Assembly: GCF_029266855.1 (NCBI RefSeq)
Contig: NZ_JAQSWB010000008.1
Coordinates: 62,001-126,000, forward strand
Source of the DNA: Fluviicola sp.
GTDB taxonomy: Bacteria; Bacteroidota; Bacteroidia; Flavobacteriales_D; Crocinitomicaceae
DNA length: 64,000 nucleotides
Direction: 5' to 3'
Shown here: positions 1,007 to 51,198 of the stretch, in pieces
How positions within the stretch are numbered: the first letter of the stretch is position 1
Layout: every line of letters starts with the position of its first letter
The notes under the pieces: generated by a model
What the model saw: the letters and a program-made list of their open reading frames with translations, nothing else
Told to the model about the DNA's origin: nothing
The model's database searches: none
Position numbers and translations under genes: made by a program

Positions 1007-1084
1007 AGACTTAAGACTATAGACGCTAGACAAAAGACTTGATAAAAGCTTTGTCTAATGTCTTTGGTCTAATGTCTCAAGTCT
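1007..1084 (+). repeat. Palindromic 7-bp-period element in the gatB leader
   Basis: Five AGAC tetramers begin at 1007, 1014, 1021, 1028 and 1035, exactly 7 bp apart. After a 14 bp loop, five GTCT tetramers begin at 1053, 1060, 1067, 1074 and 1081, again exactly 7 bp apart. The three-base spacers differ, so the two arms form a long imperfect hairpin whose conserved part is the tetramer ladder. The second arm ends 6 nt before the gatB ATG. This is the heptad version of the octad elements at 7.1, 12.1, 15.9, 42.1-42.5 and 49.9-50.1 kb. The function is unknown. Confidence 0.85.
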
Positions 1085-1090
1085 ATAAAA

Positions 1091-7064: not shown

Positions 7065-7069
7065 TTTAT

Positions 7070-7168
7070 TGGATTTTAAGATCTTAGGACTACAGGATTT
7101 TAGGACTTCGAATCGTTAAAACATTCAATCTAATCTTAAAATCTTAATACCTAAAGTCCTGATGTCTA
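7070..7168 (-). repeat. Octad palindromic element upstream of the MORN gene
   Basis: Arm A on the + strand has RRGAY cores at 7070 (TGGAT), 7078 (AAGAT), 7086 (AGGAC), 7094 (AGGAT) and 7102 (AGGAC), each 8 bp apart. Arm B has the reverse-complement cores at 7133, 7141, 7148, 7156 and 7164 (ATCTT, ATCTT, TACCT, GTCCT, GTCTA). The arms could fold into a long imperfect hairpin with a loop of about 25 bp. On the transcript of the minus-strand MORN gene the last core ends 5 nt before the ATG. Confidence 0.8.
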
Positions 7169-15929: not shown

Positions 15930-16014
15930 TTGATATTAGGACATCCAGATTTTAGGATATTAGGACTTGAATTATTAGTCTTAATATCCTGATGTCTTGA
16001 TGTCTTGAAGTCTT
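15930..16014 (-). repeat. Octad palindromic element, overlapping the 3' end of the next gene
   Basis: Arm A cores TTGAT, AGGAC, CAGAT, AGGAT and AGGAC start at 15930, 15938, 15946, 15954 and 15962, exactly 8 bp apart. Arm B cores GTCTT, ATCCT, GTCTT, GTCTT and GTCTT start at 15978, 15986, 15994, 16002 and 16010, again exactly 8 bp apart. The loop is 11 bp. Arm B runs into the coding end of the gene at 15981-16631 and supplies its last codons and stop. Confidence 0.85.
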
Positions 16015-16631
16015 TTTATTTCCCCTTCTTTAATGGTCGACCAACGTGTTTTTTTTCTTCCGGGAATTTCCACCACATAGATCCAATTCTGATCTTCCTT
16101 TTCTTCGTTTAGTATTCCAACCAGTTTCGCTGCTGCAATTGGAAATTTGGATTCGATATAGACCAGGTGATTTTCTCCGATCAAAAACAAGGAATTTCTA
16201 CTCTGCTTTCTGAATTGGGCTCTGACCTGGTAAGAAACACATTTCGGTCCGTAGCAGTCGAGCCAATTGAAAAATGCATTTTTAGTTCTCAGGCTGTCTT
16301 TAAACTCGTAATGAAGCGCAACGATGCTGTCCTTCTGATTTAAGAGGTACCATTTTTCCATTTTTGAGGGTCCGAAACGATCCGGGAAAAGCAGGCTGTC
16401 CAGCCTAAACCAGGATGCGTCTTTGTAGATTGAGTCAAAAGCTGTGAGGAAATACCCTTTCTTCGGCTTTTCATCTTTGATTTCAATTGTTCCTTTTGAA
16501 TCATCAACGTGATCAAATTTGTCGGAGGTGTGCGAGATATCTTCCAGTGAGAGGGTCTCTTTTTCATTATCCGAACAGGAAACCATCGGCACCAACATAC
16601 ATACAATAACAGCGACTGTGAATAGCTTCAT
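15981..16631 (-). CDS. Predicted lipoprotein of unknown function
   Basis: A 216-aa protein with a signal peptide and lipobox (MVSC, Cys at residue 19), then an acidic linker and a mixed alpha/beta body (GYFLTAFDSIYKDASWFRLD...). I recognise no family. The last 11 or so residues, RLQDIKTSGY and neighbours, are encoded by the octad repeat arm B, so the natural C-terminus has probably been replaced by repeat sequence. Its start overlaps the stop of the threonine aldolase gene by 4 bp, which implies co-translation. Confidence 0.6.
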   Translation of the reverse strand: MKLFTVAVIVCMLVPMVSCSDNEKETLSLEDISHTSDKFDHVDDSKGTIEIKDEKPKKGYFLTAFDSIYKDASWFRLDSLLFPDRFGPSKMEKWYLLNQKDSIVALHYEFKDSLRTKNAFFNWLDCYGPKCVSYQVRAQFRKQSRNSLFLIGENHLVYIESKFPIAAAKLVGILNEEKEDQNWIYVVEIPGRKKTRWSTIKEGEIKRLQDIKTSGY

Positions 16632-35503: not shown

Positions 35504-36214
35504 TTAAAACCTCAACTTCGTCATTTCCAAACTCAGCAAATCGAAAATATGAAAGGTATTGAGGTTGATTTCGAGTTCGAGAATACATTTCAAAGCCTCA
35601 TTCGCCATTAAGGTACCGATTACCCCGGGAACAACTCCCAAAACTCCGTTGTCGGAACAATTGGGAACATCCTCTGCGTTAGGTGGCTCCGGAAAAAGAT
35701 CCCTCAGGTTTTTACTTCCCTGGTGGTTAAAAACAGCCAATTGACCCTGGAATCCTAAAATACTTCCATAAATCAAGGGTTTTTCAAGTTCCACACAAGC
35801 GTCGTTTACGATGTAGCGTGTTAAAAAATTATCACAACCATCGATCACCAAATCGAATTGAGATAAAATAAACTCCGCATTATCTTCATTTAAAGCACAA
35901 TCAAAAATATCAATGATTACATCCGGATTTTGGGCCAATGCTCTCTCTTTGGCAATTTCCGCTTTCTTCTTTCCTACGTCCTGTGGCATATACAGAACCT
36001 GTCGGTGTAAATTAGAGTGCTCAATCACATCAAAATCCACGATACCGATTGTTCCTACTCCGCAAGCCGCCAGGTATTGAATCACCGGACAACCCAAGCC
36101 ACCTGCTCCAATCACAACAATCCGGGAATTTTTAAGTTTCACTTGGCCAATGAGGCCAACCTCATCCAGGATGGTTTGTTTGGAATAGCGTTTTGCTTCG
36201 TTGGGATTAAACAT
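35504..36214 (-). CDS. thiF: ThiF/MoeB-family sulfur-carrier adenylyltransferase
   Basis: ThiF adenylates the C-terminal GG of ThiS so that it can receive sulfur. The nucleotide motif GAGGLGCPV is near residue 34, and DFDVIEHSNLHRQVL and DGCDNFLTRY follow, all hallmarks of the E1-like superfamily. The 236-aa length is the short form without a rhodanese domain. The ATG at 36214 (MFNPNEAKRYS) overlaps thiH by 8 bp; the frame is open to a TTG at 36229. It is the last gene of the thiamine operon. A MoeB role for molybdopterin is not excluded, but context favours ThiF. Confidence 0.9.
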   Translation of the reverse strand: MFNPNEAKRYSKQTILDEVGLIGQVKLKNSRIVVIGAGGLGCPVIQYLAACGVGTIGIVDFDVIEHSNLHRQVLYMPQDVGKKKAEIAKERALAQNPDVIIDIFDCALNEDNAEFILSQFDLVIDGCDNFLTRYIVNDACVELEKPLIYGSILGFQGQLAVFNHQGSKNLRDLFPEPPNAEDVPNCSDNGVLGVVPGVIGTLMANEALKCILELEINLNTFHIFDLLSLEMTKLRF

Positions 36215-37382
36215 GCTTGTCAGTTTCAATTGTCAAATCATCTATCCTCTGCTCCCCTCCAAAAGGGGAAGAAGAAATAAAGCTGCGGTCCCAATCTTTC
36301 CAAACCGCTTCGTAGCCCTGATCCTTAATTAATTTCGCTATTTCCTCTACAGAACGCTCATCAGAGATCTCGAACTGCTCTAATGATTCCGGTTCCACCA
36401 CATATCCTCCAGGATTGGTCTTAGAACCGGCACTCATGGTTGTTACTCCTAACGGAATTACATGATTCCTGAAATACTCCGACTCACGTGTAGACACAGA
36501 TAATTCCACGTCCTCATTAAACAAGCGATAGGCACAGATCAATTGCACCAATTCGCGGTCGCCCACAATGACATTGGGTTCAATGATTCCTTCTGCCGGC
36601 CGCATTCTGGGAAAAGAGATGGAATATTTTGTCTGCCAATACTTTTTTTGCAGGTAATCCAAATGTAAAGCGCAGAAAAACGAATCGGTTCTCCAATCTT
36701 CCAAGCCGAGCAAAACACCAAGACCAATTTTATGAATCCCTGCTTTTCCACAACGATCCGGAGTATCCAGACGGTATTCAAAATTAGATTTTTTTCCCTT
36801 CGGATGATAAGCCTTGTAAACGTCTTTGTGATAGGTCTCCTGGTAAACCAATACCGAATAAACTCCAGCTTCGTGCAATTCCCTGTATTCATCTTCGTCC
36901 AAGGGCTGTACTTCAATCGAAATATTTGCAAATTCATTCCGGATCAGATCCATCACCCGCTTAAAATAAGGAACGTGAACGGTCTGGTTTGCTTCTCCCG
37001 TAACCAATAAAATATGATTGAAGCCGCGTTCTTTCAAATAAGCGACCTCCTGCAGGATCTCTTCATCTGTCAATGTTTTCCGACGGATCTTATTATCGAA
37101 GCTAAATCCGCAATAAGTACAAATATTGTTGCATTCATTGCTCAAATACATCGGAGTATAAAGCTGAATGGTTTTTCCAAAACGTTTTTTGGTCAGTGCG
37201 TGACTTTCCTGGGCCATGCGCTCAATAAATGGTTCAGCAGCAGGTGAAATAAGTGCCTTGAAATCTTCCAGGGTTCTCTTCTTAGAAGACAAAGCACGTT
37301 CCACATCTTCAGCTGTTTTGCTGTAGATGGAAGATTTTATTTCATCCCAGTTGGTGTTGTGAAAAAGTGTTGTGAAACTCAT
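36207..37382 (-). CDS. thiH: 2-iminoacetate synthase (tyrosine lyase)
   Basis: ThiH is a radical-SAM enzyme that cleaves tyrosine to dehydroglycine (2-iminoacetate) for thiazole synthesis under anaerobic-type chemistry. The [4Fe-4S] motif CNNICTYC is near residue 85, followed by SFDNKIRRKTLTDEEI and EVQPLDEDEY. Length (391 aa) is slightly longer than usual: the last 20 or so residues (SSSPFGGEQ and onward) are encoded by a CTCCCCTCC repeat and look like an in-frame extension past the natural end WKDWDRSF. It acts with ThiG, ThiS and ThiF in the same operon. Confidence 0.95.
   Translation of the reverse strand: MSFTTLFHNTNWDEIKSSIYSKTAEDVERALSSKKRTLEDFKALISPAAEPFIERMAQESHALTKKRFGKTIQLYTPMYLSNECNNICTYCGFSFDNKIRRKTLTDEEILQEVAYLKERGFNHILLVTGEANQTVHVPYFKRVMDLIRNEFANISIEVQPLDEDEYRELHEAGVYSVLVYQETYHKDVYKAYHPKGKKSNFEYRLDTPDRCGKAGIHKIGLGVLLGLEDWRTDSFFCALHLDYLQKKYWQTKYSISFPRMRPAEGIIEPNVIVGDRELVQLICAYRLFNEDVELSVSTRESEYFRNHVIPLGVTTMSAGSKTNPGGYVVEPESLEQFEISDERSVEEIAKLIKDQGYEAVWKDWDRSFISSSPFGGEQRIDDLTIETDKHV
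36251..36270 (-). repeat. CTCCCC-type inverted repeat, copy 1
   Basis: GCTCCCCTCCAAAAGGGGAA, a short CCCCT...AGGGG hairpin. It lies inside the 3' end of thiH and is translated as part of its C-terminal extension. Related copies are at 37388 and 39594. Confidence 0.65.
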
Positions 37383-37387
37383 CTTGT

Positions 37388-37418
37388 CCTCCCCCTTTCT
37401 CCCCCTCCAAAGGGGGAA
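37388..37418 (-). repeat. CTCCCC-type inverted repeat, copy 2
   Basis: The thiG-thiH gap (43 bp) consists almost entirely of this copy: CCTCCCCCTTT then CTCCCCCTCCAAAGGGGGA. The CCCCCT...AGGGGG pair could form a hairpin between the two cistrons. Confidence 0.65.
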
Positions 37419-37425
37419 TCAAATT

Positions 37426-38190
37426 TCATATATTCAAAAATCCTGTTAGCGGACTTGAAGCATTTGCTGATCGTGAAATTGCTCCCAAACCTGCTTCATA
37501 AGCCATTCTTCCCGCTTCTACTGCCATTTTAAAGGCCAAAGCCATTTCTGCAGGATTCTGTGCCACTGCAATTGCAGTATTCACCAAAACAGCATCTGCA
37601 CCCAGTTCCATTGCATGGGCTGCATGCGATGGTGATCCGATCCCGGCATCAACGATCACAGGTACGCGGCTTTGCTCAATAATAATTTCAAGGAAATCCA
37701 GTGTTTTCAAGCCTTTATTCGTTCCGATCGGCGCTCCCAATGGCATTACTGCAGCGGTTCCTACATCTTCCAGGCGTTTACACAAAACCGGATCAGCGTG
37801 GATGTACGGAAGAATAATAAAACCCAATTTGGCCAATTCTTCTGTTGCTTTTAAGGTTTCTATCGGATCGGGTAATAAATACTTTGGGTCGGGATGAATT
37901 TCCAGCTTCAGCCAATTCGTTTCCATTGCTTCACGTGCCAATTGAGCAGCAAACACTGCTTCTTTAGCGTTCCTTGCACCGGAAGTATTGGGTAACAGAT
38001 TGATGTGTCCATGTTTTAAATGGGACAGTAAATCGTCGGTTTCCGTTTCCAGATCCACACGCTTAAGTGCCACCGTTACCAATTCTGATCCTGAAGCCAA
38101 AACTGCTTCCTCCATTTGTTTAGAAGAACCAAACTTTCCGGTCCCTAAAAACAAACGCGATTTAAATTCTTTATCTGCTATTTTAAGCAT
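37426..38190 (-). CDS. thiG: Thiazole synthase
   Basis: ThiG condenses 1-deoxy-D-xylulose 5-phosphate, 2-iminoacetate and ThiS thiocarboxylate into the thiazole phosphate. The N-terminal [10 protein letters not shown], the Schiff-base lysine in [11 protein letters not shown] near 42, [15 protein letters not shown] near 65, and [31 protein letters not shown] near 180-210 are signature blocks. Length (254 aa) is standard. It overlaps thiE by 8 bp. Confidence 0.97.
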
Positions 38191-38812
38191 AACTCAATGT
38201 TTGTTCTATTTCACTTATTAAAGTTGTTTTGTCTGCCGAATTGGAGATCATTCCCGAAACAGCAATTCCATAAACACCTGTTTTTTTCAGTAATTCCACG
38301 TCATTCCGGACAATTCCGCCTATTGCGTAGATCGGAATGGAAAGTCCGGCCATCTCGAGTTCCTTGGCAACTCTCTGATATCCTTCAAATCCTAAAAGCG
38401 GACTCAGTTTTTCTTTTGTTGATGTGAAACGCAGCGGTCCAAGTCCCACGTAATCACATTTTTCACGGATACGTTGCAGTACATCTTCCAGGGTGTTGGC
38501 CGTTCCACCTATTATTTTCGCGGAACCTAAAATCTTTCGTGCCTCCACCACAGAAGAATCCGTTAACCCAAGGTGAACACCATCTGCATCCACTTCTTTG
38601 GCAATTTCTATCGAATCATTAATAATTAACTTTGCATTTCCGTAAGTACACCAAACACGTGCCTGTCTGGCCACGTCCAAAACAGCTTCCTTTGAACCAT
38701 TCTTGAAACGAAGCTGGATCATTTTACATCCGGCTTCCAAAGCATTCAAAATGTTTTGTTTCTGCTCTTCAACTGTTTCTCCATGAGATATGTACTGGAT
38801 TCTACTCAACAT
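38183..38812 (-). CDS. thiE: Thiamine-phosphate synthase
   Basis: ThiE joins HMP pyrophosphate and thiazole phosphate to thiamine phosphate. The TIM-barrel motifs are intact: [10 protein letters not shown] near 32 (Q-x-R-x-K), [21 protein letters not shown] near 75-95, [13 protein letters not shown] near 135 and YAIGGI near 172. Length (209 aa) is normal. This is the full-function copy; a divergent relative (39557-40210) lies two genes upstream. It overlaps thiD by 11 bp and thiG by 8 bp. Confidence 0.95.
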
Positions 38813-39560
38813 GATATGCTAATAAATATTCGTTACTTGAAAGTCTTTTTTCTATGTACTGTTTTGCTTCCCGGCATGCTTCAAACAAAGCTTCTCCCAA
38901 GGCCAAATTAGAGGCGATCGCGGCAGAAAGGATACATCCTGAGCCATGTTTTGGATAACAAGCTTCCGGATCCAATTTTGAAGGAAGTTCCCTGGGAACT
39001 CCACCTTCGAACAAAAGATCAAGGCCCAGACGTTCCGAACTATGTCCGCCTTTCAGCAATACACCTGTCACCTTTGCCAAATGAAAAGCCGCTTCAATTT
39101 CGTCTTCCATCTGAGTTATTTTTTTTATTTCAGGGACATTCGGAGTAATCAGATCGATCTGTTCCAATATGGAATTTAAAGACTCTTCGTTCCAGCTTGC
39201 ATGCAATTCAAATCCGGATGATGCCGAGAGTACAGGATCCCAAACAACCGGAACGGATGGGAATTTCTTTTTTATCAGCTTTAACAACTCCGACAAAACT
39301 TCCAGATTCTCGATGATCCCGATCTTAACTGCTGCAACTTCGTACGTATCTAAAATTGGTTGCAATTGATCTATAATCGCCTGTTTGTCAAACCAATTAA
39401 CCGAAATAAAGTTTGTTTCAGTTTGAATTGTGTTTGCTGTCAATACTCCCATACCCAAACATGCGTGCTGCTCACATGTTTTCACATCTGCCAGTACACC
39501 TGCTCCACCGCTTGGGTCGAAACCTGCAATGCTAAGAACTATGGGATGTTTGTATTTCAT
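38802..39560 (-). CDS. thiD: Hydroxymethylpyrimidine/phosphomethylpyrimidine kinase
   Basis: ThiD phosphorylates HMP and HMP phosphate. The ribokinase-fold signature SIAGFDPSGGAGVLADVKT is at residues 10-28, followed by VWDPVLSASSG near 125 and the anion-hole region HGSGCILSAAIASNLALG near 205-220, where GSGC holds the catalytic cysteine. Length (252 aa) is typical of stand-alone ThiD. It overlaps both neighbours (4 bp and 11 bp), so the whole block is translationally coupled. Confidence 0.95.
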   Translation of the reverse strand: MKYKHPIVLSIAGFDPSGGAGVLADVKTCEQHACLGMGVLTANTIQTETNFISVNWFDKQAIIDQLQPILDTYEVAAVKIGIIENLEVLSELLKLIKKKFPSVPVVWDPVLSASSGFELHASWNEESLNSILEQIDLITPNVPEIKKITQMEDEIEAAFHLAKVTGVLLKGGHSSERLGLDLLFEGGVPRELPSKLDPEACYPKHGSGCILSAAIASNLALGEALFEACREAKQYIEKRLSSNEYLLAYHVE

Positions 39561-40209
39561 TGTTTTTCCTCCAAGTCTTTACTTTTGGAAAGTCCTCCCC
39601 ATTGCTCCCCCTCCAAAGGAGGAAAAACGGAAATCGCGTCCCTACACTTATTCCATTCATTTATCGGATCTGAATTATTCCAAATTGCCCCGAGTAATGC
39701 AGCACCGTCGAAACCCATTTGGATCAACTGATTCACATTAGCTGCCTGGATTCCCCCTAAACCAATTAATTCCGTTTGGTTATTATCACGTTTCGACAGA
39801 TCAAATTTCACCGCTTTGTAATCCGCTTTCGAAATACTATCAAAAACAGGACTTAAAAAGGCGTATGAAAAGTACTTCGGCAGTTCGTTGTATTCTTCCA
39901 GGCTATGTACTGAGGTCGAATAAACAAACTCCTTATTTATTCCTGTCCAGCCTGCCGTTTCCCATATTTTTCGATCCCTTTCAGAATAATGAAAGCGCTT
40001 CAATCCAATTTCCTTGCCCCATTCATGGTCATGATGTAAAACCAGCCTGGAATGGTTTTCGGGATGGATTTGGGCGATCAACTTCCACAACAATTCTTCG
40101 CTTGCACCATATTTTCGAATATGAAACAAGTCGAGACCGGAGAGAAACAATTCATTTATAATTCTTGCTTCACCGGGTTTAAAATCGCTGTCGGAAATGA
40201 CGATAAGCA

Positions 40210-40210
<1 letters not shown>
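39557..40210 (-). CDS. Divergent ThiE/TenI-like protein
   Basis: A 217-aa thiamine-phosphate-synthase-fold protein. Compared with true ThiE the pyrophosphate-binding Q-x-R-x-K appears as FHIRKYG and the I-N-D motif as VLHHDHEW, while SPVFDSISKADYK and GLGGI are kept. This pattern fits TenI, the thiazole tautomerase that aromatises the ThiG product, better than a second ThiE. The last 25 residues (FPPLEGEQWGGLS onward) derive from a CTCCCC repeat and are probably not functional. It overlaps thiC by 1 bp and thiD by 4 bp. Confidence 0.75.
39594..39626 (-). repeat. CTCCCC-type inverted repeat, copy 3
   Basis: CCTCCCCATTGCTCCCCCTC followed by CAAAGGAGGAAAAA. It lies inside the 3' end of the TenI-like gene and is translated as PPLEGEQWGGL. 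It is clearly related to the copies at 36251 and 37388. Confidence 0.6.
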
Positions 40211-42057
<1,847 letters not shown>

Positions 42058-42061
42058 TTAA

Positions 42062-42539
42062 AAGATTTTAGGACTACAGGATTTCAGGATTTTAAGACTG
42101 AAATGCATCGTAATCAATTTAATTTGTATTTAATGTTCGTTTGAATGCACCTATTTTCTTTTGAAGGATAGTAAGTTGATCTATTATTGGTTCTGTTGAG
42201 ATGTCATAAATTTCGCAAACAAGTATTAATTGGGTTTCTAATTCATAAGATGATGAAATTGCAATATCAAGAAATCGGATAAATTCTTTTTCTGACGAAC
42301 GTCCCGAACCTTCCGCAATATTTGAAGGAATGGAAACTGCACAACGATTCATCTGAGAAGTCAAACCAAATTTTTCAGATGAATCCATAGATGATGTTAA
42401 TTCGTAAATTGATTTAACAAAAGCTATTGACTCTTTCCAAATTTGCAATTCTCTAAAATTATGAGTCTTTACCATTATTTTATACTCCTTTAAAATTTTG
42501 AATTCCTGAAATCCTAATATCTGAACATCCTGAAGTCAA
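42062..42539 (-). mobile_element. Putative cassette: four-helix-bundle gene between two octad arms
   Basis: The left arm (42062-42098) has cores AAGAT, AGGAC, AGGAT, AGGAT and AAGAC starting at 42062, 42070, 42078, 42086 and 42094. The right arm (42503-42539) has cores TTCCT, ATCCT, ATCTG, ATCCT and GTCAA starting at 42503, 42511, 42519, 42527 and 42535. Both ladders are exactly 8 bp and inverted to one another. The unit fills the thiS-thiC gap to within 1 bp of the thiS stop and 4 bp of the thiC start. No target-site duplication is obvious. Mobility is inferred, not shown. Confidence 0.55.
42119..42475 (-). CDS. Four-helix-bundle protein (23S rRNA intervening-sequence/S23 family)
   Basis: A 118-aa basic protein matching the family: the N-terminal F-R-E-L-Q-I-W-K (residues 7-14), AFVKSIYELTSS, the conserved GLTSQMNRCAVSIPSNIAEG near 38-57 and SGRSSEKEFIRFLDIAISSSYELETQLIL near 58-85. 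Family members are encoded within the intervening sequences of some 23S rRNAs and as stray genes in many genomes; the function is unclear, though the fold resembles the Avd accessory protein of diversity-generating retroelements. It interrupts an otherwise seamless thiamine operon and is flanked by octad arms. Confidence 0.9.
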   Translation of the reverse strand: MVKTHNFRELQIWKESIAFVKSIYELTSSMDSSEKFGLTSQMNRCAVSIPSNIAEGSGRSSEKEFIRFLDIAISSSYELETQLILVCEIYDISTEPIIDQLTILQKKIGAFKRTLNTN

Positions 42540-42540
42540 A

Positions 42541-42744
42541 CTATCCGCCTTGTGTTGCTTTGATTATTAGTAATTCATCATTTTCATTCACAGGTGTTTC
42601 CATCCAGGAATCTTTCGGGATTACTTGTCCGTTTATGGCCACAGCAATTCCTTTGGAGTTTTCACCAATCTGCTGAAAAACCAGGTTTGAAAGCTTCGTC
42701 TGAGCTTCCACTTCAATTGTTTGATTGTTTAATGATATTGTCAT
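42541..42744 (-). CDS. thiS: Sulfur carrier protein ThiS
   Basis: A 67-aa ubiquitin-fold sulfur carrier ending in the obligatory GG (KATQGG) that ThiF adenylates and which then carries sulfur to ThiG. AVAINGQVIPKDSW near 34-47 is the family signature. It is the first gene after the TPP riboswitch. Confidence 0.95.
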   Translation of the reverse strand: MTISLNNQTIEVEAQTKLSNLVFQQIGENSKGIAVAINGQVIPKDSWMETPVNENDELLIIKATQGG

Positions 42745-42800
42745 TCCAACTGTAATTTACGCACTTTAGGAATGACTACAAAGAAAGTATCCATTTCACT

Positions 42801-42880
42801 TTTCCCTCCGTCAGTACCAACTGAATCAGGTTCAAAGGGTATTTCTCAGTCAGTCATAGCCGACACCCCTAAAGCAGGGT
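42801..42880 (-). ncRNA. TPP riboswitch (THI element)
   Basis: The minus-strand leader of thiS contains the full TPP aptamer consensus: GGGGTGTC, then ACTGAGAAATACCC, TTGAACCTGAT, a short P3-type helix and GGAGGGAAAA. This aptamer binds thiamine pyrophosphate and lowers expression of the downstream genes. It controls the thiS-to-thiF operon. The expression platform would lie in the 56 nt before the thiS ATG; I see no classical terminator there, so control of translation initiation is more likely. Confidence 0.95.
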
Positions 42881-42912
42881 AAAGATACAAGAGTTAATTG
42901 AAAAAGTGAAAA
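42881..42912 (-). promoter_or_regulatory. Probable promoter of the thiamine operon
   Basis: The minus strand reads TTTC, 20 bp, TATCTTTA. Both boxes differ from consensus in one base. The start point would be right at the 5' edge of the riboswitch. Confidence 0.4.
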
Positions 42913-43010
42913 ATGAAAAGTTAAAATTGTCTCTTTGTTTCAACAATACATTTAGTTCCAGTAAATTAGCTGCAACTCAACTTTTTTTGTACATTCATCA
43001 AAAAATCACC

Positions 43011-43487
43011 ATGAAAATCATATTCCTAAGCATACTTTTATTAGTTGCCTTATTTTCTGCTACTTCCTGCAAGAAGAAAGAAAGTCCAACAAAAAGTACC
43101 AATTCAAACAGTTTCACATTAAAGAAGGATGGCGTTCTTTATTCTCCCAATTACATTTTAGTGTCTCAGGTTGATGAAGATGCTCTGTCTGTTGAAACCC
43201 ATATCGTTAATCAGTATCCATGGGATAATTCGTATGTGATATTCATCAAAAGATCAATAAGTCCCGGAACGTATCTTGGAGAAGATGGCGAATCAGACTA
43301 TTTTTCGCTTATTCATAATCAGGATTCCACTAATATGTTTGGCTGGGAAACGAGTTCATTAACCGTACTCTCAAACGATACTCTTACCGGAGTTTTACAC
43401 TGCACTTTTGAAGTGCTCCTTTACAATGATGACTGTGAAGGAAGTTGTCCGCAAATTACGGATGGTGAAATGACTATTCATTACTAA
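43011..43487 (+). CDS. Small lipoprotein, family member 1
   Basis: A 158-aa lipoprotein from the ATG at 43011 (MKIIFLSILLLVALFSATSC, Cys at 20); the frame is open 35 codons further upstream but that part is not signal-like. The mature protein has KKKESPTKS, a beta-rich core with TSSLTVLSNDTL near 115, and ends ITDGEMTIHY. The same SLTVLSNDT and IT-(D/E)-G endings occur in the next gene and, less exactly, in the gene at 47215, so the three are paralogues. I do not recognise a named family. Confidence 0.75.
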   Translation: MKIIFLSILLLVALFSATSCKKKESPTKSTNSNSFTLKKDGVLYSPNYILVSQVDEDALSVETHIVNQYPWDNSYVIFIKRSISPGTYLGEDGESDYFSLIHNQDSTNMFGWETSSLTVLSNDTLTGVLHCTFEVLLYNDDCEGSCPQITDGEMTIHY

Positions 43488-43496
43488 ATCAGTTAA

Positions 43497-43967
43497 ATGA
43501 AAAGCAAATTAATCCTGCTATTTGGTCTTACTCTTTTCTCGCTTTCAGCCTGTAAAAAAGATAATACCACCCCAGAAACAAGCACACCTGCTACCAGTAA
43601 TCCTTTTAGTTTAAAACACGATGATATTCTTTTCACCACTTATAATCCTAACGTAACTCTCAATGAATTCATGATTGGCATAACAGCAGGTACCATAGGT
43701 GAAACAGGCAATTTCTATCAACTTGGAATTAAGAGAAATATTCAGCCCGGGACGTATGAATATACGGGAAGTACAGATGATCCCATTGTTTTCCTTATTA
43801 TCTCCGATCAGTTGGTTTTTACGGAAGAGCACGGGAGTTTAACCGTTTTATCGAATGACACTATTTTAAAGAAGATCGTCTTCAATTTTGAATTTGAAAT
43901 GTTGGAAAATAATTCCCATTCTGACACGATTCAAATCACAGAAGGTTTTGGCAATATTGATTATTAA
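43497..43967 (+). CDS. Small lipoprotein, family member 2
   Basis: A 156-aa lipoprotein (signal MKSKLILLFGLTLFSLSAC, Cys at 19) 9 nt downstream of its paralogue. The mature protein starts KKDNTTPETS; it has GSLTVLSNDTILKKIVFNFEFEM and the terminal ITEGFGNIDY. The core is predicted beta-sandwich. Its stop codon overlaps the stop of the convergent gene at 43964 by 4 bp. Confidence 0.75.
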   Translation: MKSKLILLFGLTLFSLSACKKDNTTPETSTPATSNPFSLKHDDILFTTYNPNVTLNEFMIGITAGTIGETGNFYQLGIKRNIQPGTYEYTGSTDDPIVFLIISDQLVFTEEHGSLTVLSNDTILKKIVFNFEFEMLENNSHSDTIQITEGFGNIDY

Positions 43968-44506
43968 CTCACCCACATTCCGTAAGAATCAACGTAAATC
44001 CATTTTCCTTTTTCCAATTTATAGATGTTCGTTGAACCTTGACCCGATAAACCTCCACATTGAACGGACTGATAAAAAATACAGTAAGTTTTATTTGCGT
44101 TGAAAATTGGCATTGTAGCAGACCGATAACACCTTTTGGGATATTTTTTACAAAAGCGTTTCCAGCCCTTTTGGTAATTTCTAAAAATCCATTTCAATTT
44201 CAATCTTGAGATAGTTTTTACGTTTTGCAGTCGATTTTGATTCCATTTAAAATGATTCATTTCCTTCAATTGAACTCGAAAAAAGGCCAAATCATCATTC
44301 GAAAAGTAAGTTGTGTCGTGCAAAAAAACGCTCGTGTCTTTATAAAATCCCCATTGATCTGAGTTCTTTAACAGAAGTAATTCTACAGAGTCTGTTCCAA
44401 AAATAAATTGTTTAGAAAAATCATACATTTCCTCTCTTGATGGCAATGTTTGGGACAATACATCGAAGGAAGCTGCGAAAACCAAAACAAAAATTAAGGA
44501 CTTCAT
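43964..44506 (-). CDS. Exported protein of unknown function
   Basis: A 180-aa protein with a signal peptide (MKSLIFVLVFAASFDVLSQ). The middle is basic and aromatic (SRLKLKWIFRNYQKGWKRF, KKYPKRCYRSATMPIF), and the C-terminal half has CIFYQSVQCGGLSGQGSTNIYKLEKGKWIYVDSYGMWVS, a small beta unit with two cysteines that could be a disulfide pair. I recognise no family. It follows the DUF1361 gene with a 6-bp gap. Confidence 0.6.
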   Translation of the reverse strand: MKSLIFVLVFAASFDVLSQTLPSREEMYDFSKQFIFGTDSVELLLLKNSDQWGFYKDTSVFLHDTTYFSNDDLAFFRVQLKEMNHFKWNQNRLQNVKTISRLKLKWIFRNYQKGWKRFCKKYPKRCYRSATMPIFNANKTYCIFYQSVQCGGLSGQGSTNIYKLEKGKWIYVDSYGMWVS

Positions 44507-44512
44507 TTGGTG

Positions 44513-45181
44513 TTAATTTAAGCGATTCTTTCTCAAAAACCTGAACGTAAAATACAGCATTGTCAGGAACAATCCCATGAAAACGGTTACGCCCCAGGTT
44601 CGGGTGTGATCAAAAGGATTGATGATCCGGTCTCCGATATCACCCATTAATTTGGTTGGATGATGCAGAATATCCCAGCTGTTCCAGCGAAGGTATCTCC
44701 CGATGTAAATTCCGAAACTGCTTATAAACAACAACACAACAGAAAGCAGTGTGATTGCCCGTCTGGATAAAAATTGTTCCATCAATTCTTCCAAGTTCCA
44801 CAAACTCAGGAAACCATACAGTAAACCCGTCCAGGCAAAGGATAAGATCAATACCAGGTCGAACCAAATAGGCATAGATGAGCTGTGACTCAGATGAAAC
44901 AGATCGGTTAGAATATACGATGCGTTCGGAAAGAACAAAAGCCAAACTCCCAGCATTCCAAAAACTGCCAGGCGGCTTTTCTGCAAATTCGGGCTCATTG
45001 CCAGAATAACAGTGAACGTCCATGGAACAAATGCCAGGAAGAGGTTCCAGTTTAAAAAGAGAAAATGCCGTGTTCCCGAAATTTCTACCCTAAAAAGGGA
45101 TAAAGCAAAGCAGAAGAAGGATAAAACCCCCATAAACAGGGAGATTTGAAATTGGTTGGTTTTGACTAATTGTTTGAGCAT
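44513..45181 (-). CDS. DUF1361 integral membrane protein
   Basis: A 222-aa protein with about six transmembrane helices. The central signature LLFFPNASYILTDLFHLS near 82-99 and the later WNSWDILHHP near 166-175 are the DUF1361 marks. The function is unknown. It overlaps the dgkA start by 16 bp, suggesting a linked envelope-lipid role. Confidence 0.88.
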   Translation of the reverse strand: MLKQLVKTNQFQISLFMGVLSFFCFALSLFRVEISGTRHFLFLNWNLFLAFVPWTFTVILAMSPNLQKSRLAVFGMLGVWLLFFPNASYILTDLFHLSHSSSMPIWFDLVLILSFAWTGLLYGFLSLWNLEELMEQFLSRRAITLLSVVLLFISSFGIYIGRYLRWNSWDILHHPTKLMGDIGDRIINPFDHTRTWGVTVFMGLFLTMLYFTFRFLRKNRLN

Positions 45182-45555
45182 AACGCAATAATTCTGGGTC
45201 CGAAAATGATGATTCCAACTAATAACGCAGAAACAGCACTAATTAGTACCGAAGCAGCTGCCAAATCTTTCACTTTTTTGATTTGGGGATGTTTTTCAGG
45301 CGATGCATAATCTGCCATTGCTTCCAACGAGGTATTGATCAGTTCACAAATAAAGACCAAAGCCATCACAACTATCAAAGAAATCCATTCGTTCAGAGTG
45401 ATCTTAAATACAAAACCCAATACAATTACAATCACTGCTGCAAGCAAATGAATCCGGGCATTGTGTTCCTCAACGAAAAGTGTTTTCAAACCTGCAAAAG
45501 CGTACTTGAAACTTTTGAGGCGATCTGAGATAGAGAAGGGTTTTTGTTTGGACAT
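45166..45555 (-). CDS. dgkA: Diacylglycerol/undecaprenol kinase, DgkA family
   Basis: A 129-aa membrane kinase with three transmembrane helices. EEHNARIHLLAAVIV near 29-43 and the catalytic stretch VFICELINTSLEAMADYAS near 67-85 (E-x-x-N-T) are diagnostic, as is the KVKDLAAASVL segment near 94. Soluble-end acidic residues match the Gram-positive-type undecaprenol kinases as well as DAG kinases, so the lipid substrate is open. Confidence 0.9.
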   Translation of the reverse strand: MSKQKPFSISDRLKSFKYAFAGLKTLFVEEHNARIHLLAAVIVIVLGFVFKITLNEWISLIVVMALVFICELINTSLEAMADYASPEKHPQIKKVKDLAAASVLISAVSALLVGIIIFGPRIIALCSNN

Positions 45556-45685
45556 TCAGTTTTATAAATAATTTCCTTAATCATAACGTAAGAAATGGAA
45601 GAATATTAGAATTAAAAGGGAAAACAACTAATTTCCAACCTTTTGGTTTTGTATACGTCAATGTCGCATATCAAAAAGGTCCACT

Positions 45686-47155
45686 ATGAAAAAACTACTT
45701 TTATCATTTCTTCTTATTTCCAATTTGTTATTTGGGCAGGAAGCTGCTTATCGTCTAAATGGAATTTCTACTTCCAATTATGATTGTTTTCTTCCGGTAA
45801 ACGAGGGTGTTTATATTACAAATCTGGTTTTAGACCAGGCTGATTTCTCTCCCATATATTCAATCAACTATTTTCCAAAGAATGGTGAATCAGGATGGAG
45901 TAAAAAAATAAGTGTCCCTAGCGGTTTCAATTCCGGTAAGTCGGCCATTGCAGCTTGCAATCTATCCAATCAATTTATCGTCTCAATACAAAACCTGGAA
46001 TGCGATCTATGTTTGGTGATGAAAATCGATACAAACGGAACCATTATTTGGTCAAGGTTGCTGACGTATCCCGTTAACATGGGTGACTACGGATCGAATG
46101 CAACGCCTATATCCTTGAACGAGCAGGATGAAATTACACTTTCTTTGACTTCAGTAAATAATTTGACCTTATCGAAACTAGATACAGATGGTAACCTTAT
46201 TTTTTCAAAACGATTCAATACCCCTGGACTTGAAGATTCAAAAAACCCAGGATTTTCTATTGTGTGCACCAATGACGGAGGCTATTTAGCTACTATGAAG
46301 GCAGGAGATAATCCAACCATCACCAAATTGAATTCAAATTTGCAGGTTACCTGGTCCAAAAAATGGAGTATTGATTCATACAGTCATCCAAAACTCGCTG
46401 TAACGCTTCCAAATGGTAATTACTGTATTATTGGAGAAGGTGATAATGGGACATATTTTGCCCGGGTAGATCCCAATGGAAATTTATTATCATATATCTA
46501 CGGCGTTCCACTCAATCCTCCTTACCGATGCAAGGTAATTGATTCCGACTCAATTGCATTAGTCGATATGTCCGGGACCAGTTTCAAAATAAATTTATCA
46601 AACAATACCATGTCGTCAACTAGTACAAACGAATGGATATATGGTTTACCCAACTATACGAATCAAAAAATGAGCTTACTTGATTACAGCAACTCTATGA
46701 TCTATCTTGATTTGGAGAGTACCCAGATGGGATGTTTCAGTTTTTCTATTTTAAATACTACCCTCTCTGACCAGGTTGTTTATCCGAGCAGCGTTGTGGA
46801 CGAAACAATCGTTGTCGAAAATAGTGGTTCCATTACTGGTTATACTCCAACAATCAGCACCACTAACGATGTTTCCATGACACTAACCTGCGGTAGTCTT
46901 GGAGTAAATGAAACAGAAAAAACACAGTTGACGCTTTATCCCAATCCTGCTATACAAGGACAGAAGATTACTTTGGCAATAGAAAAATCATCCGGAAATA
47001 AGCTCCGAATTTTGACGCTTTCCGGGCAATTAATCGAAGTATTTGACCTGAACGGATCAGTTTTCACTGCTCCACAAGAATCAGGAATGTATTTTGTACA
47101 AATCCTGGATCAAAGCGGAAATATTATTTCTGTTGAGAAATTGGTAGTTGAGTAA
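45686..47155 (+). CDS. Secreted protein with type A T9SS sorting domain
   Basis: A 489-aa exported protein (signal MKKLLLSFLLISNLLFGQ). Residues about 20-390 form repeated blades with N-G-G-Y and K-x-D-x-x-G-N-x-x-W-S/F-S-K-R-type strands (MKIDTNGTIIWSRLL, SKLDTDGNLIFSKRF, TKLNSNLQVTWSKKW), a beta-propeller-like arrangement. The end, about 415-489, has LYPNPAIQGQKITLAI and SGMYFVQILDQSGNIISVEKLVV, a type A T9SS signal. It is likely a cell-surface or released protein; no enzyme motif is visible. Confidence 0.85.
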   Translation: MKKLLLSFLLISNLLFGQEAAYRLNGISTSNYDCFLPVNEGVYITNLVLDQADFSPIYSINYFPKNGESGWSKKISVPSGFNSGKSAIAACNLSNQFIVSIQNLECDLCLVMKIDTNGTIIWSRLLTYPVNMGDYGSNATPISLNEQDEITLSLTSVNNLTLSKLDTDGNLIFSKRFNTPGLEDSKNPGFSIVCTNDGGYLATMKAGDNPTITKLNSNLQVTWSKKWSIDSYSHPKLAVTLPNGNYCIIGEGDNGTYFARVDPNGNLLSYIYGVPLNPPYRCKVIDSDSIALVDMSGTSFKINLSNNTMSSTSTNEWIYGLPNYTNQKMSLLDYSNSMIYLDLESTQMGCFSFSILNTTLSDQVVYPSSVVDETIVVENSGSITGYTPTISTTNDVSMTLTCGSLGVNETEKTQLTLYPNPAIQGQKITLAIEKSSGNKLRILTLSGQLIEVFDLNGSVFTAPQESGMYFVQILDQSGNIISVEKLVVE

Positions 47156-47168
47156 ATAGTTCCTCCAT

Positions 47169-47200
47169 TTTGAACGCAACAAAAAATTAATCTATTTTTA
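47169..47200 (+). promoter_or_regulatory. Promoter of lipoprotein 3
   Basis: TTTG (47169-47172), 20 bp, TATTTTTA (47193-47200). A start near 47205 leaves a leader of about 10 nt before the ATG. Confidence 0.55.
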
Positions 47201-47214
47201 CGAAAACCTTTTCA

Positions 47215-47685
47215 ATGAAAAAACTCCTATATCTCCCTTTTCTAATTCTTTTGCTTTTATCCGCTTGTCAAAAGAAAGAAGACAAAACTCCTGAATCAAC
47301 TCCTGAAAATCAACTTTCAATGAAAGTTGACGGTAAACTTCAAGTACTCCCCGTATCGACTTCATGGCTCACACCACCGGATGAAACGATATTAATCATT
47401 GAAGCAGGATCCTCCACCTTAAATAGCGGACTATACCAAATGTATATTCAATCGGATATCTCTCCTGGATTTCACGAATACGGAGCCAGTGTGCAGCCTG
47501 TTATATCATTCGATTTTTACAAGGATAATAAAACCTACGATGCCTACGATGGAACTTTCCATATTTTATCCAATGATCCGGTTGCAAGACGTATCGAATT
47601 CCAATTTCAAATTAAATTATACAATGTCAATTTCCCTTCAGATCACTACGAAATCACGGAAGGGCATGTGATTGCTAACTATTAA
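47215..47685 (+). CDS. Small lipoprotein, family member 3
   Basis: A 156-aa lipoprotein (signal MKKLLYLPFLILLLLSAC, Cys at 18) paralogous to the genes at 43011 and 43497. Shared features are QKKEDKTPES after the cysteine, FHILSNDPVARRIEFQFQIKL aligned with SLTVLSNDT..., and the ending ITEGHVIANY. The core is beta-rich. It is monocistronic with its own promoter and a strong terminator. The function is unknown. Confidence 0.75.
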   Translation: MKKLLYLPFLILLLLSACQKKEDKTPESTPENQLSMKVDGKLQVLPVSTSWLTPPDETILIIEAGSSTLNSGLYQMYIQSDISPGFHEYGASVQPVISFDFYKDNKTYDAYDGTFHILSNDPVARRIEFQFQIKLYNVNFPSDHYEITEGHVIANY

Positions 47686-47691
47686 AAAACA

Positions 47692-47722
47692 AAAAGCCCC
47701 GATACTAACTATCGGGGCTTTT
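47692..47722. terminator. Bidirectional terminator between lipoprotein 3 and pnp
   Basis: AAAAGCCCCGATA and TATCGGGGCTTTT form a perfect 13-bp stem around a CTAAC loop, with A/T runs on either side. Confidence 0.95.
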
Positions 47723-47738
47723 CTATCCTGTTTTTAAA

Positions 47739-49898
47739 TTACTCTGCTTTTGAAGCTTCAGATGATTCTGCAGCTGGCTTCTCCGGTCTTGGCAATAAAA
47801 CTCTGCGAGATAATTTCCATTTTTTAGTTTTCGGATCTTTTCCAACAACTTTAAACTTCAATACGTCTCCTTCTTTTACTACGTCTTCCATTTTAGCCAC
47901 TTTTTCCCAAGAGAACTCAGAAATGTGGATCAATCCGTCAGTTCCGGGAAGAATCTCAACAAATACCCCGAAATCTTTGATTGCTTTCACTTTTCCTTCG
48001 TATTCTCCGCCTTCATCAACTGTCGGAGGGAATGCGATCATTCTGATACGCGAATTAGCAGCATTCATATCCTCTGCATTGTTCGACATAATCTGAACAC
48101 GACCTTCACCTGTTTCCAATTCTTCAATTGTAATGGTTGTATTCGTGTCTTTTTGGATTCCCTGGATGATTTTTCCTCCAGGTCCGATGATCGCTCCGAT
48201 CATATCGTTAGGCACATTGAATGCTTCGATACGTGGAGTTTGAGGTTTGAAATCCGGATTCGGAATTGCAATTGTTTCAATGATCTTGTTCAGGATGTGT
48301 AAACGACCTGCACGTGCCTGATCCAAAGCCTGGATCAATACTTCGTATGGTAAACCATCTACTTTGATATCCATCTGACAAGCAGTGATTCCCTTAGAAG
48401 TTCCCGTTACTTTAAAGTCCATATCTCCTAAGTGATCTTCATCTCCTAAGATATCAGACAATACAGCAAATTTACCTTCGTCAGCAACCAATCCCATAGC
48501 AATACCGGAAACCGGTGCTTTTATTTGAACACCACCGTCCATCAATGCCAATGTACCTGCACAAACCGTTGCCATGGAAGACGAACCGTTTGATTCCAGG
48601 ATATCCGACACCAAACGGATTGTGTATGCGTTATCTTCCGGAAGAACCGGTTTCAATGCACGCAATGCCAGGTTTCCATGTCCGATCTCACGACGGGAAG
48701 TTCCACGCAATGGTTTTGCTTCACCTGTTGAGAATGGAGGGAAATTATAATGCAATAAGAACTTCTCTGTTCCGTGGAAAGTAACTCCATCGATCAATTG
48801 CTCATCCATTTTACCACCAAGGGTTAATGTTGTCAACGATTGAGTTTCCCCACGTGTAAATACAGCAGATCCGTGAACCATTGGTAAATAGTCTACTTCA
48901 GCCCAAATCGGACGAATCTCATCAAACTGGCGACCATCCAAACGTTTTTTCTCGTTCAACATCACCCAACGAACCGCTTTCTTCTTCACTTCAGAGAAGT
49001 AAGTAGAAATAAAGCCACCTACCAATAACAATTCGTCTTCAGTAAATGCTGCTTTCACTTCCGTTTTAATCGCATCGAATAACTCTGTGCGTTTCGCTTT
49101 ATTTGCAAGACCCTGACGAGCAACTTCCTTACATTTATCCATCGCCAATTCGTACACTTTCGCTTTCACAGCCTCATCATGAGTTTCGTGAGAGTAAACG
49201 CGTTTCGGGTTAGCTGTTGGAATTAATGCTGCAAGATCTAACTGGAACTGACACTGTTCTTTAATTGCAGCGTGAGCAATTTTAATTGCTTCAACCATTT
49301 CCAATTCGGAGATTTCTTTGAATTCTCCTTCGATCATATTCACATCCTTCATCGTACCGGCAACCATCATATCGATATCTGCCGATTTCATTTGTTCCAT
49401 TGTTGGATTCAGAACCCATTCACCGTTAATACGACCTACGCGTACTTCAGACATCGGTCCGTTGAATGGAATATCAGAGACTGCAATTGCTGCAGAAGCT
49501 GCCAAACCACATAATGCATCCGGATTATTTACGCCGTCGTAAGCCAACAATTGAATCATCAATTGAACTTCCGCATGGTAATCATCCGGGAATAATGGAC
49601 GCAATGCACGATCCACTAAACGCATCACTAAAATTTCACTTTCAGACGGGCGAGCTTCTCTTCGGAAGAATCCTCCTGGGAAACGACCTGCTGCCGCATA
49701 TTTTTCACGGTAATCTACCGTTAACGGAAGGAAATCCACTCCGTCTTTTGCCTCTGGTGCCGCAACTACTGTTGCCAATAACACCGTGTTGCCCATTTGT
49801 AACACTACTGACCCGTCGGCTTGTTTTGCCAATTTTCCGGTCTCGATGGAAATTTCTTTCCCGCCAGTAACGATGGACTTTTTGATTCCTATATTCAT
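47739..49898 (-). CDS. pnp: Polyribonucleotide nucleotidyltransferase (PNPase)
   Basis: The product (719 aa) is the phosphorolytic 3'-5' exoribonuclease of the RNA degradosome. Two RNase PH domains carry [18 protein letters not shown] near 420 and the metal-binding [18 protein letters not shown] near 485. A KH domain ([14 protein letters not shown] near 575) and an S1 domain ([20 protein letters not shown] near 635) follow. It is 364 nt downstream of rpsO, as in many bacteria, and the octad element lies in the gap, just ahead of the pnp start. Confidence 0.97.
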
Positions 49899-49918
49899 AT
49901 TTATACTTTACTTTTTTA

Positions 49919-50078
49919 AAGACTTCAAGATATTAGGACTTTAAGACATTAGGACTTGATTCGTCTTTACTGCTTAAATTCCTCATCTAAAAATCGTTTT
50001 ATTATGGACTTTGAATTTTAAACCTTTGCAGGCAGGACTAAGTCCTGATATCTTAAAATCCCATAATCCTAATATCTT
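49919..50078 (-). repeat. Octad palindromic element in the pnp leader
   Basis: Arm A cores AAGAC, AAGAT, AGGAC, AAGAC and AGGAC start at 49919, 49927, 49935, 49943 and 49951. Arm B cores GTCCT, ATCTT, ATCCC, ATCCT and ATCTT start at 50042, 50050, 50058, 50066 and 50074. Both ladders are exactly 8 bp. The loop of about 85 bp is A/T-rich and has no gene. Arm A lies 20 nt before the pnp ATG on the minus strand. Confidence 0.85.
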
Positions 50079-50082
50079 TTGC

Positions 50083-50141
50083 TGTCAGTTCGAGTATTCT
50101 GCCATATTCTCGATACGCTACGCACTCGAATTGACTTGGCA
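50083..50141. repeat. Flavobacterial-type intergenic repeat with interleaved inverted repeats
   Basis: GTCAGTTCGAGT pairs with ACTCGAATTGAC, and ATTCTGCCA pairs with TGGCAGAAT; the order is a-b-a'-b', a pseudoknot-like topology. The TTCTCGATACGCTACGCACTCGAA part resembles a dispersed intergenic repeat I know from flavobacterial genomes (TATCGAGAAC...GTTCGAGT type). Confidence 0.5.
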
Positions 50142-50161
50142 GAATTACCGGAAACTAAAGC

Positions 50162-50204
50162 AAAAAAGGGGACACCGGAATAATCCGACAAGCCCCCCTT
50201 TTTT
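50162..50204 (-). terminator. Terminator of rpsO
   Basis: AAAAAAGGGG and CCCCTTTTTT close a 23-nt interior containing a second CGGA/TCCG stem. It lies 60 nt past the rpsO stop on the minus strand. Confidence 0.8.
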
Positions 50205-50263
50205 AATAATTTATTTACAAAACAGGTACATCGACTTCTCTCAGCAACCTGTTTCTTTTCGAA

Positions 50264-50533
50264 TTAACGACGTAAACCTAATTCTTTGATCAACGCACGG
50301 TATTTCTCGATATCCTTTTTCTTAAGGTAATCTAACATACTACGACGTTTACCAACCAACAACTGCAAAGATCTTTGTGTTCCGTAATCTTTACGGTTCT
50401 TTTTCAAATGCTCCGTTAAGTGAGCGATACGAAATGTGAACAAAGCAACTTGTGCTTCTGTTGAACCTGTGTTTGTTTCTGAACCTCCGTGTTTAGCGAA
50501 GATTTCTTTCTTTTTTGCTGAATCTAAATACAT
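50264..50533 (-). CDS. rpsO: 30S ribosomal protein S15
   Basis: An 89-aa 16S rRNA-binding protein. GGSETNTGSTEAQVALFTFRI near 15-35, HLKKNRKDYGTQRSLQLLVGKRR near 43-65 and the terminal YRALIKELGLRR are all family signatures. It is the gene upstream of pnp on the same strand and is separated from it by the octad element and a flavobacterial repeat. Confidence 0.98.
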   Translation of the reverse strand: MYLDSAKKKEIFAKHGGSETNTGSTEAQVALFTFRIAHLTEHLKKNRKDYGTQRSLQLLVGKRRSMLDYLKKKDIEKYRALIKELGLRR

Positions 50534-50685
50534 GCCAATATTACTTGAATGATTATTATGTAGAATCCCAACTCTTGGAATTACGGTGCAAATATAACAA
50601 CTAATTGCGAATCTCGAATACCGAATTACGAATTATTCGATAATTATCAAGTTATTGGCAGATCTTATTACGCATTGGGCTATTA

Positions 50686-51198
50686 TCATTTTTCGAAGTA
50701 GACTTCCAGGACTTCCTGGTACTTTTTCAACCGCTGGGGGAAATTGATCCATGCATAGTGGCTTGCCCAATAGCTTGTCAATTCTTTATCCTGGGTGTAG
50801 GAAGTAAACAAGACCGGCTTTTCAAAATCCACAAAAATATCCGAATCTTTCAAGCGATAACGAACAGTTTCCACTTCTTTGTTACTGGTTGTAATTCGGG
50901 AATTTAAAGTCGGGTCAAGAACCAAATCGACTTCAAGGGAGTCACTTATTTTCCAATCTGTCAAAATCTCTATTATCACATGAATTTCCCGGTTGGTGGA
51001 ATCTTTTGGCATTACGCGTATATCGGAAACAATACGTTTACCATCCAAATTTCCCACTCCGACGTAATGGACCCATCCTCCATACGGAAATAAATGTTCT
51101 GCATTCTGAGAATAAGATTCAAAAGTGAAAATGAAAGAAATCGAAAGGAGTATGTTCCACACAACCGAATGAACAGCTGTTCTGTTACAACCCTCCAT
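50686..51198 (-). CDS. Exported protein of unknown function
   Basis: A protein of about 170 aa with an N-terminal signal (SVVWNILLSISFIFTFESYSQ). The ATG at 51198 (MEGCNRT) overlaps the preceding gene by 14 bp; an ATG at 51216 is also open. The body has a beta-strand pattern with YVGVGNLDGKRIVSDIRVMPKD and DSLEVDLVLDPTLNSRI. I recognise no family. It is translationally coupled to the MORN-type gene upstream and may share its envelope location. Confidence 0.55.
   Translation of the reverse strand: MEGCNRTAVHSVVWNILLSISFIFTFESYSQNAEHLFPYGGWVHYVGVGNLDGKRIVSDIRVMPKDSTNREIHVIIEILTDWKISDSLEVDLVLDPTLNSRITTSNKEVETVRYRLKDSDIFVDFEKPVLFTSYTQDKELTSYWASHYAWINFPQRLKKYQEVLEVYFEK

Follow-up and report, generated by a model that had tools for sequence, protein, structure and literature searches.

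What is a gene for a four-helix-bundle protein doing between thiS and thiC, with a row of short, evenly spaced motifs on either side, and do gene and rows belong together? The question is raised by the DNA shown above, which lies in G000:C8:62001-126000, a 64-kb stretch (the window) of a 4.30-Mb assembly of 14 contigs. Genomes are denoted by G numbers (G000, host genome) and loci by L numbers (L001, thi-site gene). The features of the site are listed below.

40210..42057, minus strand: thiC, downstream neighbour (NCBIfam match; ThiC orthologues).
42064..42103, plus strand: downstream (3') arm of five octads, inverted relative to the upstream arm; GA-cores (GAY) at 42064, 42072, 42080, 42088, and 42096.
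42119..42475, minus strand: four-helix-bundle gene of 118 aa, PF05635 (23S_rRNA_IVP) / TIGR02436 (profile matches, AF2 model).
42498..42537, minus strand: upstream (5') arm of five octads, G-rich strand pointing inward; GA-cores at 42537, 42529, 42521, 42513, and 42505.
42541..42744, minus strand: thiS, upstream neighbour (NCBIfam match; homologous junctions).
42786..42880, minus strand: TPP riboswitch upstream of thiS (Rfam 68.8 bits, gathering 54.3).

The geometry of the original prediction was recovered from the core coordinates: each arm holds five cores at a spacing of exactly 8 bp, and the two rows are mutually inverted. The last core of the upstream arm (42505) reads GAA, and a sixth in-register GAT (42545) falls within the end of thiS. 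The enclosed gene had been assigned to the S23/IVP family, which is confirmed by PF05635 (E 1.9e-32; 112.1 bits, cut-off 33.8) and TIGR02436 (E 3.6e-31; 107.6 bits, cut-off 24). The thi operon, with the TPP riboswitch at its head, is otherwise tightly packed, and the overlap of its joints that had been described was found at the four joints next downstream of thiC (1, 4, 11, and 8 bases, respectively). NCBIfam cut-offs were passed by ThiS, ThiC, ThiH, and one ThiE; a second ThiE-like protein and an HMP-P-kinase-like protein matched below cut-off, and a gene without model match is presumably thiG. An Rfam scan of window positions 36000-51000 matched only the TPP riboswitch and an S15 leader, with no rRNA and hence no insertion in a 23S helix. 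The thi arms are absent from the output of a TRF run on the window, a strict match-at-offset scan gave a single array at period 7 and another at period 8, and column-majority scoring was needed to detect the ladders.

The same architecture recurs across the protein family. We collected 206 family loci (6 from the host genome, 30 and 20 from the host family, 30 and 40 from the host phylum, and 80 from named genomes), chosen as best-scoring matches, so that divergent subfamilies are under-sampled; family matches were present in 298 of 395 sampled genomes of the host phylum. The named-genome loci are the best 80 of 549 and mostly from Bacteroidota, with 14 from other phyla; many are MAG contigs (one titled Bordetella parapertussis), and their phylum labels may be wrong. 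Four-unit ladders of periods 5-13 were scored in 150-nt flanks of the 203 loci that have 100 nt or more on each side, at 1% thresholds from order-1 Markov shuffles, with a strict filter (used also for the two-arm counts and the different-site pairs) that overlooks some visible G-rich ladders. Upstream flanks held period 7 in 97 cases and period 8 in 36, downstream flanks in 92 and 30, respectively; any other period occurred at most twice on either side. Control flanks 350, 600, and 900 bp away (n = 400, 399, and 394) gave period 7 in 5, 14, and 11 and period 8 in 1, 0, and 1. A ladder of period 7 or 8 was present in at least one flank at 161 of the 203 loci and in both flanks at 93; 42 had none at threshold, and in the 20 of these tested with Rfam no rRNA was found, the only match being a tRNA beside L004. 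Among the 14 named loci of other phyla a strict-threshold ladder was found at 10 (absent at L215, L220, L221, and L251).

Ladders also occur away from the family in the host genus. Same-genus intergenic gaps of 60-400 nt carried a 7/8 ladder in 21 of 135 cases and a ladder of any other period from 5 to 13 in 4, so gene-less ladders are common in the genus too; two-sided matched flanking is not. One period on both sides was seen at 2 of 321 ordinary same-genus genes (400 kb) and a ladder on any side at 41 of 321, a conservative control because a copy of the family gene in the G088 stretch may be among the 321. In the host genome itself, three of the six family genes (L001, L002, and L005) have a ladder above threshold, L006 has octads by eye only, and the divergent L003 and L004 have no ladder; the expectation that every family gene of the genome is ladder-flanked thus fails literally and holds as a rule in the wide survey. 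L006 (G000:C1:902771-903085) is a broken relative of the thi gene with in-frame stops, its octad-like ladder lying on one side (by eye).

The two arms of a locus obey common rules. Where both were found (n = 93), the periods were (7,7) at 71 loci, (8,8) at 22, and mixed at none, against about 34 mixed loci expected from the arm counts if the arms were independent; 77 pairs were inverted, 13 direct, and 3 tied. Cores vary strongly among loci and agree within a locus, with 5.77 of 7 positions matching at period 7 (4.04 of 7 with shuffled partners) and 6.95 of 8 at period 8 (4.90 of 8). Polarity and unit counts were taken with a relaxed filter, which sometimes takes AT-rich runs: a G-rich upstream arm went with a C-rich downstream arm at 67 of 94 loci and the reverse at none (same sign, 15; zero skew, 12), so that G reads inward 67 to 0 where the arm skews are opposite. 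Taken singly, 104 of 136 upstream arms were G-rich (19 C-rich) and 112 of 123 downstream arms C-rich (6 G-rich); 222 of 259 arms had 4 or 5 units, in a scan that needs four to start. Placement is mostly operon-internal: both neighbours lie on the family gene's own strand at 163 of the 181 loci whose neighbours could be called (a further 9 were unclear and 16 too short). The median gaps are 63 and 46 bp, and the co-directional baseline is 127 of 288 gene triples; it comes from one genus, the host's, whereas the loci come from many.

Period and core track the protein lineage, not the site. On the 203-row tree the nearest neighbour had the same period in 144 of 160 cases (chance, 0.61), and the period labels 7 and 8 changed fewer times than in 500 of 500 shuffles; near relatives and near-copies are included in the tree and permutation tests and contribute to these values. 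Among the 140 pairs (86 loci; not independent of one another) that come from different sites and whose proteins are at least 60% identical, the period was shared in a fraction of 0.886 (0.605 permuted) and core similarity was 0.702 (0.595 permuted), and for neither value did any of 500 permutations reach the observed one. The clearest single case is a fad-like junction (by eye, a fadB-like protein and a thiolase), which holds heptad cassettes with core WAGAC in L002, L160, L156, and L162 and octad cassettes in L157, L172, and L173. The L157 and L172 proteins share 68-69% identity with L001, the protein of the thi site, and 51-55% with their junction-mates L002 and L160, and the arms of L157 and L172 share a common octad core with those of L001. 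The view that gene and arms are one unit therefore gains support, both from the recurrence of the pattern across the family and from the association of protein type with ladder type rather than with site; the fad-like junction, with its alternating heptad and octad cassettes, offers a ready natural experiment.

A second junction, read by eye as sdhA-sdhB, holds a family gene in many host-family genomes (L037, L039, L042, L043, L045, L047, and L048). Still other neighbourhoods were seen on cyanobacterial plasmids, where 14 of the 25 plasmid records encoding a relative were examined, giving 13 annotated loci. A period of 7 or 8 was found in at least one flank at 12 of the 13 (L273 doubtful by eye) and in both flanks at 5; no other period from 5 to 11 exceeded threshold in these flanks. 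By eye, the arms are inverted and G points inward at 11 of the 14 loci of the plasmid set, which includes Gemmatirosa, and the arms of L276 and L277 are direct. Both neighbours are co-directional at 9 of the annotated loci, antisense at 3 (L273-L275), and mixed at 1 (L277). In L276 and L284 (plasmids of Pseudanabaena and Anabaena) the family gene lies between cas6 and cas4, in L278 between cas10 and a Cmr3-family gene, and in L274 it is flanked by nrd genes on the opposite strand; on three of these plasmids (L276, L284, and L278) the gene thus sits within a CRISPR operon.

Ladders without a gene are present in the window as well (no strand assigned).

1050..1085: heptad arm, core WAGACNN as at L002; by eye, an inverted partner directly precedes it from about 1006.
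7069..7108: octad arm without a gene, followed directly downstream (by eye) by an octad-like partner in inverted orientation.
15931..16022: gene-less octad element with two inverted arms; heptad hairpin in the same slot of G080.
49915..50076: gene-less octad element; G080 has a heptad hairpin in the same slot, and G010, G096, and G088 have different inverted repeats there.
50603..50636: heptad ladder, core CGAATTA (window ladder scan).

The heptad ladder at 50603-50636 adjoins an S15-Flavobacteria leader RNA (50531-50596). At a looser cut, five-unit ladders in the window numbered 5 at period 7 (control mean 0.0 in 10 order-2 Markov sequences), 6 at period 8 (0.4), 4 at period 6 (1.5), and 1 at period 11 (0.0); the other periods from 5 to 15 were not above control. 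Many gene-less octad copies are dispersed in the genome, and their pattern sometimes matches its own reversed control (118 versus 44 matches in G000 with two mismatches, 53 versus 10 with one; 27 versus 18 in G088). They share a core, and at 5 of 15 sampled sites, the paired ones, the polarity too; by eye, the octad core TAGGAY and the heptad core TAGAC are about one base apart. The two gene-less octad slots of the window that correspond to heptad hairpins in G080 have flanks 79-94% identical: fixed slots exchange their ladder contents. That the gene-less octads derive from one gene-bearing element, as had been proposed, is supported by the shared core, by the polarity in paired sites, and by decayed intermediates (L069 in G080; L006).

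Ladders and gene also go together at the level of genomes. Of 44 genomes that carry the gene type (at least 120 bits), 31 had either ladder (at least 3 hits), as did 18 of 76 that lack it, an odds ratio of 7.7 uncorrected for kinship; heptads alone (at least 1 hit, stricter gene cut) were not significantly associated with gene presence (p 0.21, likewise uncorrected). The stricter rule that a gene-less ladder needs a cognate gene fails, as G059, G096, and G104 have octads and heptads and no close L001-type gene was found in them.

The original prediction had the gene recently dropped into the thi operon, and this was not borne out. In eight same-genus relatives ThiC is 93-98% identical. Not all relatives keep the gene at the thiS-thiC junction: gene and arms are kept in G010 and G088; in G080 (L069) a single arm survives together with the gene's final codons; G-rich inserts take their place in G096, G104, and G059 and, as far as the masked sequence shows, in G120; and G030 has a different repeat. 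The inserts of G096, G104, and G059 (L068, L070, and L073) are G-rich, inverted, and GAGGGAG-like, possibly heptads. Between species, dS of the family gene (0.83-1.42) is like that of thiC in the same pairs (1.05-1.13), and the gene's dN/dS is low (0.056-0.10, three species), so that the gene is an old functional resident of the thi site under purifying selection, not a recent arrival. The arms are conserved in register: the two thi arms are 87% and 91% identical, falling to 62% and 64% when shifted by whole units (for a gene-less octad element of the window, 73% in register and 65% shifted), while the synonymous identity of thiC is about 0.42-0.52, that is, about half of the positions differ. 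Since the arm left in G080 after loss of the gene is still 0.83-0.93 identical to the others, arm conservation need not depend on the gene. These relatives are too diverged (thiC dS about 0.8-1.1), and no clean empty site or target duplication that would mark a fresh insertion was found among them. Occupancy varies or contents swap at the thi site, at the two gene-less slots, and at the fad-like junction.

The AF2 model of the thi-site protein has four helices (mean pLDDT 94.9), and its best PDB fold matches are 2gsc (TM 0.83-0.88), 2rld, and then Avd 4dwl (TM 0.77, E 0.08). The entries 2gsc and 2rld are five-chain entries, and Avd is also present in DGR ribonucleoprotein entries; we take all three to be pentameric rings. 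PF05635 is the only Pfam match of the protein at E <= 1, so no mobility enzyme was recognised in it. Two candidate partners were considered and set aside: a retro route via a reverse transcriptase has no support, with 0 matches to PF00078 in the host genome, and the single Y1_Tnp-domain match (L287, G000:C13:47383-47520, a 192-aa ORF), presumably of the REP-associated type, has no 7/8-bp ladder in its 3.1-kb surroundings.

We consider it fairly probable that gene and ladders form one intercistronic cassette, and that the encoded protein or a partner recognises its directional units. Each arm would then line up directional units, usually 4-5 of them at a spacing of 7 or 8 bp, with the units of both arms pointing into the cassette; the arms would mark the cassette ends and would be read unit by unit. 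We favour recognition by the protein because the fixed polarity suggests a reader of directed units and because the fold matches five-chain entries and Avd; the binding form would most likely be a pentameric ring that takes up a single strand, each subunit reading one unit. We infer that the cassette may move as one unit, with the gene-less inverted ladders as its gene-free derivatives; a factor in trans would be needed for movement and is proposed because the protein matches no mobility enzyme. A bolder version, which we offer tentatively and would not ourselves expect to hold in full, is that the pentameric ring reads about five 7- or 8-nt units in this way and carries the cassette and its gene-less copies to new operon junctions, so that much of the unexplained heptad content of bacterial genomes would be its footprint.

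Three other readings were weighed against the cassette. The original prediction transferred the plan of the 23S rRNA intervening sequences (IVS) to an mRNA: the arms would pair in the message, the stem would be cut, and the unit would survive because its removal or isolation does the host message no harm. The arms can indeed pair, with a co-folding energy of -28.9 kcal/mol at the thi site, and at 116 of 203 loci inverted arms exceeded every one of 40 shuffles; sense orientation between co-directional genes (163 of 181) would suit such an element, and the Coxiella IVS is excised by RNase III according to PMC4990558. A stem in the mRNA would predict tolerance of G.U on the sense strand, and mismatches at the 116 loci were G.U in 140 cases, A.C in 191, and other in 419, with no G.U bias and slightly the reverse; this strand-specific test thus counts against the stem model. 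The 483-nt thi element folds no better than its shuffles (z -0.54; 29 of 100 as good), either polarity would serve a stem, yet G points inward 67 to 0, direct arms occur at 13 of 93 loci, both neighbours are antisense at 3 of the 13 annotated plasmid loci, and rRNA is absent from the 20 ladder-less loci tested. We regard the IVS plan as unlikely here.

A little less likely still, in our view, are arms that act as cis-regulatory sites, for self-regulation or for tuning of the host operon, in a domesticated regulator inherited mostly vertically. Conservation of the thi gene and its arms for about dS 1 is in keeping with such a role, as is the occupation of the fad-like junction in several genera and of sdhA-sdhB (by eye) in several genomes; but neighbourhoods are very different (on plasmids, cas and nrd genes are among them), some sister species have lost the gene or hold a replacement, gene-less copies are many and dispersed, and one junction holds two cassette types. 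Coincidence, with 7-/8-bp ladders as common intergenic repeats and the gene merely intergenic, draws on the 21 of 135 same-genus gaps with such a ladder (4 for other periods); it is strongly disfavoured and very improbable against a two-sided same-period flanking of 93 of 203 family loci and 2 of 321 ordinary genes, together with the matched cores, the unmixed periods, and the tracking of protein lineage.

The cassette, as we read it, resembles several known systems in part. In rRNA IVS the IVP/S23 ORF lies between inverted ends and belongs by name to the same protein family (PF05635); the thi element differs in sitting in an mRNA operon, between thiS and thiC, and in having arms that are ladders of the 7/8-bp type with fixed polarity and no sign of selected sense-RNA pairing. 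The likeness to DGR Avd is one of fold, whereas the NCBIfam Avd model scores 15.3 bits (cut-off 80) and the genome has no reverse transcriptase match. REP sequences with their RAYT transposases and MITEs are known dispersed elements, and by analogy they too show gene-less inverted elements beside a gene-bearing form; here the gene codes for a four-helix bundle rather than for a transposase, and the only Y1_Tnp match has no ladder nearby. The STRR of cyanobacteria are heptad repeats; the thi locus has units of 8 nt and so falls outside a class of 7, to which most of its kin would conform. Mostly intergenic 7-nt tandem units are described for Xanthomonas (GGGAATC) and Nostoc (GGGGA(C/T)T) in the main text of PMC4692102, with 70 and 75 cases of paired opposite repeats in Xanthomonas, and for Beggiatoaceae (TAACTGA) in that of PMC4679880; the terms 'helix bundle' and 'S23' are absent from both main texts. 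The family ladders differ from these in having 8-nt as well as 7-nt units and in being tied to a gene.

Each of the three components, the protein family, the IVS elements of rRNA, and the heptad repeats, is already known; in the open-access literature we found no report that joins them, or that connects the protein family with heptad or octad repeats. An orphan protein family is hereby tied to a class of repeats that are orphans themselves and are on record from cyanobacteria, Xanthomonas, and sulfur bacteria of marine habitats. Both become testable, as the repeats obtain a candidate partner protein and the protein a candidate ligand, with period (7 or 8), core, and polarity predicted for each lineage. 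A four helix bundle gene of Flavobacterium columnare, with guanylate kinase and nicotinic acid mononucleotide adenylyltransferase neighbours, is listed as a phage element in Table 5 of PMC5524665; it may instead be such a cassette.
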